Positions 16,854 to 35,418 of a stretch of DNA of 64,000 nt are shown piece by piece. Numbering within the stretch: position 1 is the stretch's first letter; each line of letters starts with the position of its first letter. This DNA is from Methylonatrum kenyense. GTDB lineage: Bacteria > Pseudomonadota > Gammaproteobacteria > Nitrococcales > Aquisalimonadaceae. The translations under genes and the position numbers were made by a program. Under the pieces are notes generated by a model. It was not told where the DNA came from and searched no databases. It was given only the letters and a program-made list of their open reading frames with translations. The DNA lies in the NCBI RefSeq assembly GCF_023195885.1, contig NZ_JALPKO010000005.1:124001-188000 (forward strand), given 5' to 3'.

Positions 16854-18368
16854 TCAAGCGATCCGTTTGCGTTCGTTGGACGAGGCAATCGACATCGCTT
16901 CCCGATACTTTGCCACAGTCCGCCGCGCGACATTAATGCCCTCCTGCTTGAGGATGTCGGCAAGTCGACTGTCGCTCAACGGTTTTGCCGGGTTCTCTTC
17001 ACCGATAAGCCGCCGAATGCGGGCGCGGATCGAGGTGGCGGAGCATTCATCACCGTCGACGGTATGCACATGGCTGGAAAAGAAATACTTGAATTCGAAG
17101 GTGCCGCGGGGGGTGTGCATGTATTTCGAAGTGGTGATCCGGGAGATCGTGGACTCGTGCATTTCCACTTCCTCGGCCACTTCACGCAACACCAGCGGTT
17201 TCATTGCCTCTTCGCCGTGCTCGAAGAACTCACGCTGGTGGCGCACGATACAGGTCGCCACCTTCAGCAGGGTGTCATTGCGGCTGCGCAGGCTCTTGAT
17301 GAACCATCGGGCCTCCTGCAGATGCTGCCGCATGGTGCTGTTGTCCTGGCTGTTGTCGGCGCGCCGCACCAGGCTGGCGTAGTAGCTGTTGACCCGCACC
17401 CGCGGGGCTGCCTCCGGGTTCAATTCGACGCGCCAGTCATCCTTGTCCCGCCGTACATAGACATCGGGGATGACATACTCGGCGGTGCTGTCACTGATCT
17501 GGGAACCGGGCCGCGGGTCCAGCGTGCGGACCAGTGCCAGGACCTCGGAAAGGTCTTCCTGGCGCAGTTTCAGACGGCGCAGCAGCTGTGCCGTCTGTCG
17601 GCTGGCAAGCAGGTCGAGGTGCTGGTCGACCAGTTGCCGCGCCTCGCTGAGCCAGGGTGTATCAGGATCCAGCCTGTCCAGCTGCAGCAACAGCGCCTCG
17701 CGCGGATCCAGCGAGGCCACGCCCAGCGGATCGAAGCGTTGAATCAGGTGGCGGACGGCCTCGATTTCGTCGGTTTCCACCAGCCAGTCCTCGGGCAGGG
17801 CACTGCGGATGTCATCGAGACCGTTGCACAGATAGCCGTCGTCGCGCACGGAATCGATGATGGCCTCGGCAATCGCCATGTCCCGTTCCGACAATCGGGC
17901 CAGACTTGCCTGTTCGCGCAGGTGATCCTGCAGGTTGCGGCCTGTCGTGGTCTGGTTTTCCCAGGCGTCGCGTCCGTCCTCGTCAGGCGCAGGCGCACTG
18001 TACGATGTGGTGCCGTCGTAGATGTCACCCCAGTCGGAATCCAGTGGCAGATCCTTGGGGATATCGTCACTGCTGGCGGAACTGCTGCGTTCATCGACCT
18101 CGCGTTCGGCCGCATCCCGGACACTGTCCGCCTGCGCGGTCTCCGCTTTAGCACTCTCGCTCTTATCCTCGCCGTTGGCTTCCGCCTCGCGTTCCTCGAC
18201 GCCGTCATCGCTGTCGTCGGCAGGCTCCAGCATCAGGTTCGAATCCAGTGCCTGCTGCACTTCCATGTGCAACTCCAGCGTTGACAGTTGCAGCAAGCGT
18301 ATCGCCTGCTGCAACTGTGGGGTCATCGTCAGCGTCTGACCGAGGCGGAGCTGCAACGATTGCTTCAT
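16854..18368 (-). CDS. rpoN: RNA polymerase sigma-54 factor
   Basis: 504 residues from the ATG that begins the conserved MKQSLQLRLGQ; 14 further upstream codons are unlikely. Region I (Gln-rich activator-interacting part) is at 1-45, an acidic region II at about 55-115, then the core-binding part, and the RpoN box ARRTVAKYRE at 481-490, which reads the -24 promoter element. Sigma-54 needs an AAA+ activator to open promoters. It is separated from upstream lptB by 319 bp, so it may have its own promoter. Confidence 0.97.
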   Translation of the reverse strand: MKQSLQLRLGQTLTMTPQLQQAIRLLQLSTLELHMEVQQALDSNLMLEPADDSDDGVEEREAEANGEDKSESAKAETAQADSVRDAAEREVDERSSSASSDDIPKDLPLDSDWGDIYDGTTSYSAPAPDEDGRDAWENQTTTGRNLQDHLREQASLARLSERDMAIAEAIIDSVRDDGYLCNGLDDIRSALPEDWLVETDEIEAVRHLIQRFDPLGVASLDPREALLLQLDRLDPDTPWLSEARQLVDQHLDLLASRQTAQLLRRLKLRQEDLSEVLALVRTLDPRPGSQISDSTAEYVIPDVYVRRDKDDWRVELNPEAAPRVRVNSYYASLVRRADNSQDNSTMRQHLQEARWFIKSLRSRNDTLLKVATCIVRHQREFFEHGEEAMKPLVLREVAEEVEMHESTISRITTSKYMHTPRGTFEFKYFFSSHVHTVDGDECSATSIRARIRRLIGEENPAKPLSDSRLADILKQEGINVARRTVAKYREAMSIASSNERKRIA

Positions 18369-18472
18369 GCGACAGCGACTCCCGATGACGGCATGCATGG
18401 CCATGCGCACAGCAGCGGAACGGCAGGCCGCTGCAGCAAGGGATATCGATGACAGGCCGGCGAGTGAATTCG

Positions 18473-18486: not shown

Positions 18487-18534
18487 TTAGCTGAATAGCG
18501 GCTGCTGTTGAATAGTTGGCCCGACTCTTGCCTG

Positions 18535-18564
18535 CTAGGGAAACACTGATCTATTCCCGCGTCT
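18535..18564 (+). repeat. 30-bp dispersed repeat, copy 1
   Basis: This 30-bp stretch, beginning CTAGGGAAACACTGATC, is identical to the reverse complement of 34802-34831. Inside it GGGAA and TTCCC form a short inverted repeat around 11 nt. Flanking bases are unrelated in the two copies. It does not encode a gene. It looks like the end of a miniature element or a conserved regulatory repeat. Confidence 0.8.
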
Positions 18565-18687
18565 GCGTCCGAGACCGGTTTTGGTCATCTGGCAAGGCGC
18601 GGTGCCTGTCCGGCGGCATTTGGCACGCCCCTGGCGGTGAGGGGGAGCCGCATCCCGACGCAGGCCTTCGCAGCGATTCGTGGTCCG

Positions 18688-19413
18688 TCAAAGGCGAAAG
18701 GTTTCACCAAGGTAGACGTCCCGCACTTTCTGGTTGGCCAGTATCGTGGGCGCGTCGCCTTCGGCGATGATGCGTCCTTCGCCGAGGATGTAAGCGCGGC
18801 CGCAAATGCCCAGGGTCTCCCGGACATTGTGGTCGGTGATCAGGACGCCGATGCCCCGCTCCGCGAGGTGGCGAATGATGTCCTGGATGTCGCCAATCGA
18901 GATCGGGTCGACACCGGCGAAGGGTTCATCCAGCAGGATGAAACGCGGGTCGGCCGCCAGCGCTCGGGCGATCTCCACGCGCCGCCGTTCACCGCCGGAG
19001 AGGCTGATCCCGACCTGGTCCTGCAGGTGGGCGACGTTGAATTCCTCCAGCAGTTCCAGTGCCCGGTCCCGACGTCGTCTTGCATCGAGTTCCGGTCGTG
19101 TCTCGAGGATTGCCAGCAGATTGTCCATCACGCTGAGTTTGCGGAATATCGAGGCTTCCTGCGGCAGGTAACCGACTCCACGGCGCGCCCGGGTGTGGAT
19201 CGCCAGCCCGGTGATGTCCTGGTCATCCAGCAGGATCTCACCGCCATCCACGGGCACCAGGCCGACAATCATGTAGAAGCAGGTGGTCTTGCCTGCACCG
19301 TTCGGACCCAGCAGGCCGACGACTTCACCGCTGCTGACGTGCAAAGAGGCATTTTCCACCACGCGGCGTCGGCGGTAGGCCTTGCTGATGTCGACGACGC
19401 GGAGGGTACTCAT
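18688..19413 (-). CDS. lptB: LPS export ABC transporter ATPase
   Basis: 241 residues. LptB powers extraction of lipopolysaccharide from the inner membrane with LptF and LptG. Walker A GPNGAGKT is at 36-43, the ABC signature LSGGERRR at 138-145 and Walker B ILLDEP near 159-164; the C-terminus ends [10 protein letters not shown] as in other LptB proteins. It overlaps lptA by 4 nt and completes the kdsD-kdsC-lptC-lptA-lptB operon. lptF and lptG are not in the window. Confidence 0.97.
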
Positions 19414-22149: not shown

Positions 22150-22228
22150 GCGAACAGATCCGCGTTTCCCACCGAAATTGCGCTGCGCGACTCCCGGCGT
22201 TGTCGAAAAATCTCCGCCAGCCCTTGAT

Positions 22229-34372: not shown

Positions 34373-34789
34373 ATGTCTGTCAGTCAGGGCATGACATCGA
34401 GCCGGCCGTACCTGATTCGGGCGCTGTATGACTGGATCGTGGATAACGGCCTGACCCCGTACCTGCTGGTCGATGCCGAGCACGCCGAGTTGCAGGCACC
34501 GTTGGAGTACGTGGAGAACGGCCGGCTGGTACTCAACATCTCGCCGCGTGCCGTACGCGATCTCGATCTGGGCATGGAGGCGGTTTTCTTCAACGGGCGT
34601 TTTGGCGGTGAGCCGCGGGACGTCTGGGTGCCGACACCTGCCGTGTCGGCCATCTACGCGCGGGAAAACGGGCAGGGCATGCTGTTCAGCGATTCCGACG
34701 ACGCCCCTCCGCCTCCAGGCGGCGGCCCCTCCGATGGCGAGGGCAAGGGTGACAATGACAGCCGTCCGCACCTGCGGGTCGTGAAATAG
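34373..34789 (+). CDS. sspB: ClpXP protease specificity-enhancing factor SspB
   Basis: 138 residues. SspB tethers ssrA-tagged proteins to ClpXP. The N-terminal substrate-binding domain has SSRPYLIRALYDWIVDNGLTPYL near 9-31. A disordered proline- and glycine-rich linker leads to the C-terminal ClpX-binding motif, here ending RPHLRVVK (131-138), which matches the E. coli XB motif. It begins 2 nt after the sspA stop. Its stop is followed by a 30-bp dispersed repeat. Confidence 0.96.
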   Translation: MSVSQGMTSSRPYLIRALYDWIVDNGLTPYLLVDAEHAELQAPLEYVENGRLVLNISPRAVRDLDLGMEAVFFNGRFGGEPRDVWVPTPAVSAIYARENGQGMLFSDSDDAPPPPGGGPSDGEGKGDNDSRPHLRVVK

Positions 34790-34801: not shown

Positions 34802-34831
34802 AGACGCGGGAATAGATCAGTGTTTCCCTAG
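34802..34831 (-). repeat. 30-bp dispersed repeat, copy 2
   Basis: Identical over 30 bp to the reverse complement of 18535-18564. It fills most of the 38-bp gap between convergent sspB and dolP and includes the dolP stop codon (34828-34830). The inner GGGAA/TTCCC arms could form a weak hairpin. Flanks differ from copy 1. Confidence 0.8.
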
Positions 34832-35418
34832 TCCCGGTAGTCGAACAGCCGGACCACCTCGCGGACGCCGGAAATGCGCCTCACCGATTCGGTGATCGCA
34901 TCGGCCTCCTCCCGCGTTACCGAACCCAGCAGATACAGGCGGCGCCGCTCCGCGCGCACGACCACGCGGCGATGGTCGAACCCCTCGGGTTCGCGCAACA
35001 TGCGGATCCGGGTCCTGGCGCTGCTCTGCATGACATTGTCGCGACTGCGGGCCATGACCGAACTCAGGTCGGCGACCACCAGTTCGTTGTGCACCCGCTG
35101 AACGCCGTCCTGCGACTCCGCGAAGCGGGCCAGCCCACGTCCCGGTTCCCGCGAGCGAACCTCGCCGGTGAGCAGCACCACACCATTGAACACCGTGACG
35201 TTGATGTGGGAGCGGTCCTGCAGTTCCCGGTCGTTCAGGATATGGCCGATGATGCGGCCCCGCAGCCGTTGGTCATCAATGCTGTCGGCAAAGTTGCGGC
35301 TGCCATCGGCGGTTTCACGGTCATCACGGACCTCGTCCACCCGGGACGGTGCGCAGCCGGCGGCAAGGGCCAGCGCGACGAACAGCAGCAGGGCCTGCGC
35401 CGGCAGCAGCGTCCGCAC
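34828..35418 (-). CDS. dolP: BON-domain outer-membrane lipoprotein DolP
   Basis: 196 residues with a lipoprotein signal and lipobox LAAGC (Cys22). Two BON domains follow, about 48-115 and 125-192; HINVTVFNGVVLLTGEV and RLYLLGSVTREEADAITESVRRISGV are typical strands and helices. DolP (YraP) supports outer-membrane integrity and BAM function. It is last in lpoA-yraN-diaA-dolP, as in E. coli, starting 3 nt after diaA. The stop codon lies inside the 30-bp repeat. Confidence 0.93.
   Translation of the reverse strand: MRTLLPAQALLLFVALALAAGCAPSRVDEVRDDRETADGSRNFADSIDDQRLRGRIIGHILNDRELQDRSHINVTVFNGVVLLTGEVRSREPGRGLARFAESQDGVQRVHNELVVADLSSVMARSRDNVMQSSARTRIRMLREPEGFDHRRVVVRAERRRLYLLGSVTREEADAITESVRRISGVREVVRLFDYRD

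Follow-up and report, generated by a model that had tools for sequence, protein, structure and literature searches.

A 30-base inverted repeat is the end of a high-copy MITE family, very probably of IS5 type, that often lies on stop codons

A shared 30-mer and its two copies

Why should two separate intergenic regions share 30 identical bases in opposite orientation? We addressed this question for a window of 64 kb (the whole stretch of DNA analyzed here, C25 124001-188000 of G000, a 2.95-Mb genome assembled into 29 contigs). Direct comparison confirmed the identity reported in the initial annotation: CTAGGGAAACACTGATCTATTCCCGCGTCT stands at window positions 18535-18564 and, in reverse complement, at 34802-34831, and the flanks are unrelated beyond these 30 bases. 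No third copy lies within the 64-kb window at up to 8 substitutions. The description of both copies as non-coding stands in that both lie outside called genes, but the CTAG at 34828-34831 includes the stop codon of a BON-domain gene.

Copy 1 lies between lptB (18688-19413, minus strand) and rpoN (minus strand, start near 18356-18410). Its outer edge is formed by a CTAG tetramer of the YTAR type (18535-18538, plus strand), which we assign as the insertion target, and the terminal repeat starts at 18539. Resemblance to the left end of the repeat family described below extends to 18623 by profile (18539-18623, plus strand; match at C25 142539-142623, profile positions 1-85) and to about 18613 by local alignment (extent 75), so that what remains in copy 1 is a single end and 75-85 bp from the left half of the element. 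We call it one-ended because a search for a decayed right end in 18620-18690 gave nothing above shuffled sequences (p 0.076 and 0.116).

Copy 2 is a solo terminal repeat of about 26 bp (34802-34827, minus strand) from which the remainder of the element is absent. It lies between two convergent genes, sspB (34373-34789, plus strand) and the BON-domain gene (34828-35418, minus strand; PF04972), with its own CTAG target tetramer at 34828-34831 (minus strand) including that gene's stop codon, 34828-34830. The best NCBIfam model for the BON-domain protein is PRK11023, at 80.1 bits and under its cut-off of 184. A possible third, decayed end at 22152-22169 (minus strand; 2 mismatches in 18 bases) is uncertain, its tetramer, GGTG, being non-YTAR. 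Both window copies are thus one-ended remnants, a state that, like the stop-codon position of copy 2, was outside the view of the initial annotation.

Just before copy 1, at 18517-18531 on the plus strand and thus opposite to rpoN, stands TGGCCCGACTCTTGC, which we take to be a sigma-54-like -24/-12 site. TTGGCCCGACTCTTGCCTG is conserved in the relatives G013 and G015 and has one change in G014; a start about 12 bases past TGGCCCGACTCTTGC would land in the terminal repeat of copy 1. The lptB-rpoN intergenic region of G013 (L176) also carries an end of the family, which lies on the lptB stop codon by our own reading of the frame. In reverse complement it reads CTATAG followed by GGAGGCACTGATCAG, and it aligns with a score of 22, whereas the best of 2000 shuffles reached 21.

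A high-copy family of miniature elements

The repeat extends far beyond the window. At up to 3 mismatches, the 25-base core CTAGGGAAACACTGATCTATTCCCG has 87 matches in G000 and the 20-base core GGAAACRCTGATYTATTCSC marks 284 ends; the same cores read backwards have 0 matches each, in keeping with the earlier exclusion of chance identity. At up to 1 mismatch, 15 of the 54 genomes from the order carry ends: 183 in G000, 166 in G014, 114 in G013, 86 in G012, 50 in G010, 26 in G011 and at most 8 in each of the remaining nine. The pattern GGGAAACRCTGATYTATTCCCGCGTCTGCG was found in 15 stretches of a public genome collection, 14 from one metagenome-assembled genome and 1 from another, both titled Ectothiorhodospiraceae bacterium, and the family probably belongs to that lineage. 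Three contig ends of G000 fall inside copies (C25 219138-219215, C23 2-99, C28 150672-150774); the copies are therefore probably undercounted and may account for some assembly breaks. In G012, at least 14 ends among the matches listed are no more than 60 bases from the start of a contig.

We searched for inverted pairs of ends in two samples of G000. In sample 1 (1,169,994 bases: C25, C28, C23 1-400000 and C12 1-400000), 31 pairs were found at up to 4 mismatches, with sizes of 47-50 bp (3), 80-185 bp (10), 268-272 bp (10), 312-385 bp (7) and 966 bp (1). The 312-bp and 966-bp pairs are probably chance pairings. As this tolerance yields chance end matches (5 in one shuffled C25), later counts were made at up to 2 mismatches. 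With the second sample added (794,130 bases: C1 1-400000, C24 and C2 1-120000; 1.96 Mb altogether), the 123 loci comprise 40 inverted pairs and 83 one-ended loci, 45 of the latter retaining at most 45 bp of family sequence. A relaxed partner within 1300 bp was found for 29 of the 83 solo ends, compared with 117 of 600 random places, so few solo ends gain a real partner.

Complete elements are commonly ~270 bp long, as is the consensus, and strongly palindromic. Their two ends are alike over the first ~18 bases and then diverge (GGAAACRCTGATTTATTCCCGCGTCTGCGCCC... and GGAAACACTGATTTATTCGCACGCCTGCGTTGG...), and a complete copy is predicted to fold at -192.1 kcal/mol (z -13.75) into one terminal stem and two arms. 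The 270-bp core holds no transposase, and G000 has no match to DDE_Tnp_1 or DUF772 (PF01609, PF05598). An Rfam scan of one full element (L004) gave a single match of 24.7 bits, under the gathering score of 47. Several longer copies (for example C25 112219-112556 and C23 227143-227506) carry an insert with GTAG-like palindromes; this GTAG-like pattern has 46 matches in the 1.96 Mb at up to 4 mismatches, those inside and outside copies pooled, and none in the window.

The bases adjoining the ends point to a specific target. CTAG, TTAA, CTAA or TTAG adjoins the scored end at 86 of 123 loci, CTAG or TTAA predominating and CTAA and TTAG being rarer, and other tetramers are found at 37. In the two samples together, an exact 4-bp duplication flanks 15 of the 40 pairs and is lacking from 25; the permuted mean is 5.0, and none of 20000 permutations reached as high a count. 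Twelve of the 15 duplications are the palindromic CTAG or TTAA, and three are clearly direct (CTAA, TTGA and CTGG). YTAR is given as the duplication motif of IS5 (PMC10359306). The suggestion that the repeat might terminate a miniature transposable element is thereby borne out, with hundreds of ends in the genome and some inverted pairs between matching 4-bp duplications: the 30-mer consists of a target tetramer and the terminal inverted repeat of a family of miniature inverted-repeat elements (MITEs) present in many copies.

A putative IS5-type driver

The initial annotation had proposed a search for an insertion sequence that shares these ends, and one was found in relatives. We searched 11 genomes with the DDE_Tnp_1 and DUF772 profiles, and in G009, of the same family as G000, four copies of one transposase stand beside the genome's only four end matches at up to 1 mismatch. 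The insertion sequence is 1202 bp long and is bounded by GGAAACGCTGATTTATTCGCC and GGAAGCGCTGATCTAATGCC; the tetramers on its two sides are equal in three of four copies (CTAA, CTAA, TTAG), and the fourth has CTAA and CTAG. Its protein of 327 amino acids contains both DUF772 and DDE_Tnp_1, and its score against NCBIfam transpos_IS5_4 is 339.5 bits (cut-off 140). Among the matches listed, at least four MITE ends of G000 are identical to the first 20 bases of the insertion sequence. The family here shares with IS5 elements the 4-bp YTAR duplications and a putative driver transposase above the transpos_IS5_4 cut-off; in contrast to them, the MITE is geneless, and its match to the insertion sequence is limited to the ~20-bp ends.

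Queried over the order, the G009 protein has matches in 14 of 54 genomes and none in G013, G014 or G015. G011 carries a relative at 95% identity, at a contig end, with ends on both sides and the tetramers TTAG and CTAG. G053 has another at 77% identity with an open frame of 328 amino acids, although one TGA is counted within the match. The single protein match in G000 covers residues 28-74 at 55% identity with one stop (E 6e-10) and lies behind an end at C24:202085 whose tetramer is TTAG; it was detected by the protein query and missed by the Pfam DDE_Tnp_1 and DUF772 profiles. Pieces of the insertion sequence follow this TTAG end in order (positions 1-119, 181-291 and 902-943; E 0.007, 3e-7 and 0.13), which suggests that an autonomous element was probably once present there.

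By sequence resemblance, then, the driver of the MITE is likely a 1202-bp element of the IS5 family. A tight link between the two is opposed by the distribution: G009 has its four insertion sequences and no further end at up to 1 mismatch, whereas the protein query found no intact driver in the MITE-rich genomes of the genus (G000, G014 and G013). The intact insertion sequence resides in other genera and has only ~20 bp of end in common with the MITE; an intact driver may also lie in the gaps between G000 contigs. Two other candidates were rejected, L164 of G013, the stronger of two other DDE_Tnp_1 matches in that genome, having only two 5-mismatch end matches, and L163, a DUF772 match in G012, having no end present.

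Stop codons and the history of insertions

The ends avoid genes and often coincide with their stops. In sample 1, with genes called by a simple dicodon script rather than standard annotation, none of 94 ends (up to 2 mismatches) lies inside a gene, compared with 85% of random positions, and for 23 of the 44 ends that face a gene's stop, the stop codon lies exactly in the tetramer. The corresponding numbers in the second sample are 1 of 69 and 10 of 34. Measured against non-coding YTAR sites as the null, loci on stops are in excess in both samples: 22 of 51 scorable loci with 9.7 expected (simulated p 5e-5), and 10 of 35 with 4.6 expected (p 0.011). This scoring leaves out loci with other tetramers (20 of 71 and 17 of 52), one of which is on a stop. 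On 389,711 bases of G013 and G014, from contigs chosen because earlier searches had revealed ends on them, none of the 47 ends falls inside a gene, and the distance to the stop is 0 for 11 of the 25 ends that face one; 9 of 20 scorable loci are on stops, compared with about 6.1 expected by hand, which is weak and unconvincing alone.

Target sequence and selection account for a large part of this excess, and may or may not cover the whole of its roughly twofold size. YTAR includes TAR, insertions in coding or promoter DNA would tend to be lost, and a duplicated stop should be harmless. We think it rather unlikely that stop codons are a preferred niche beyond what YTAR frequency and coding avoidance provide, with elements steered there or kept as useful at 3′ ends (for instance in forming the 3′ end of the mRNA), and with solo ends retained for that reason. 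Repeats that provide stop codons are already known. The BOX repeat of Streptococcus pneumoniae is described as encoding a gene's stop codon in 36 cases, truncation being not strongly evidenced (PMC3049150); from that description, BOX is a modular repeat that the MITE here resembles in stop-codon provision. The termini of GTAG-tagged REPs are likewise reported to supply a TAG stop to flanking open reading frames often (PMC3733652).

Comparison with relatives shows both decay and persistence. At the site orthologous to G000 C12 59271, G014 has a two-ended element of 177 bp between TTAA duplications; G000 retains one end at the shared TTAA, and the other end is missing together with flanking DNA. 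A full element at C24:261217 is common to G000 (405 bp) and G013 (270 bp), and some insertions therefore predate those species. We compared 118 G000 loci with the 389,711 bases of G013 and G014 in search of empty sites; both flanks matched for 23, few of them cleanly, and the comparison was not clean at C12:48368 and others. The best empty sites are those of copy 2 and C12:282383. No element is present at the copy-2 site in G013, G015, G012 or G010, and G014 has TTAAGAAAACGCGCACTTGTTCC there, which agrees at 22 of 30 positions by hand count and may be a degraded end. In all five relatives a stop (TGA or TAA) aligns with the G000 TAG. At C12:282383, G014 has a TAG aligned with the G000 stop and no recognizable end, so that the gene end at that site, like that at copy 2, seems to have existed before the insertion and not to have been created by it.

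Weighing the explanations

We consider that the 30-mer is the outer end, a 4-bp YTAR tetramer plus a terminal inverted repeat of about 26 bp, of a non-autonomous IS5-type MITE family moved in trans and decayed to remnants, with a probability of roughly 0.93. Transposition might instead be only the origin of a sequence now under selection as a protein-binding site or a stand-alone hairpin signal (REP-like or terminator). Consistent with this are the many solo ends (83 of 123 loci), 45 of them with so little family sequence, the GGGAA...TTCCC within the end, which can pair, and the right end at C24:261217, which is nearly identical in G013 although the 400-bp flanks are 77-79% identical. Yet copy 1 folds no better than shuffled sequences (z -0.73), our selection of ends for intactness favors conserved ones, and the copy-2 site is empty in four relatives and holds at best a degraded end in G014; we regard a selected signal as very unlikely.

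A RAYT-mobilized family of GTAG-type REPs or BIMEs would also comprise short palindromic intergenic repeats, GTAG-like repeats do occur within some longer copies, and GTAG-tagged REPs are reported from Thioalkalivibrio (PMC3733652). As described there, those REPs are palindromes of 20-40 bp with a GTAG tag; here some longer copies enclose a GTAG-like repeat, the ends carry no GTAG tag but adjoin CTAG or TTAA (CTAG/TTAA + GGAAAC), and copy 1 has no structural excess. The ends instead lie inverted on ~270-bp elements with duplications and match those of an IS5 element, which makes a REP or BIME origin still less credible than a selected signal. That the identity stops at exactly 30 bases between unrelated flanks would fit a local duplication or recombination product of the two window sites only. 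The initial annotation had pointed to this alternative should the genome hold two copies only and relatives none; the 87 core matches in G000 and the many in relatives refute it.

Under the MITE interpretation, an IS5-family transposase acting in trans would recognize the ~20-bp ends and mobilize the element, which would be joined to YTAR sites with duplication of 4 bp, in agreement with the duplications and the end match observed. Insertion at a stop codon would leave the gene intact, since the duplicated site itself supplies a stop, TAG in CTAG or TAA in TTAA, and such copies would presumably survive. Copies would then decay by deletion into one-ended remnants, as seen at the one orthologous site, C12 59271, and presumably elsewhere. 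As described, MITEAba12 with ISAba12 and RUP with IS630-Spn1 are likewise short, non-coding and flanked by target duplications, with inverted ends shared with an insertion sequence; they differ from the family here in size and insertion sequence, and in duplications of 9 bp (MITEAba12) or insertion at TA (RUP) (PMC6382973, PMC2229807). A literature search of open-access titles and the starts of abstracts found no description of this MITE family, which is new, ordinary in kind and mildly interesting for its stop-codon habit.

An odd 30-base repeat thus becomes the remnant of a genome-wide element family for which a probable driver can be named. The family offers a clean case in which the target sequence of a transposon includes a stop codon, which allows elements to insert at gene ends and leave the genes intact.
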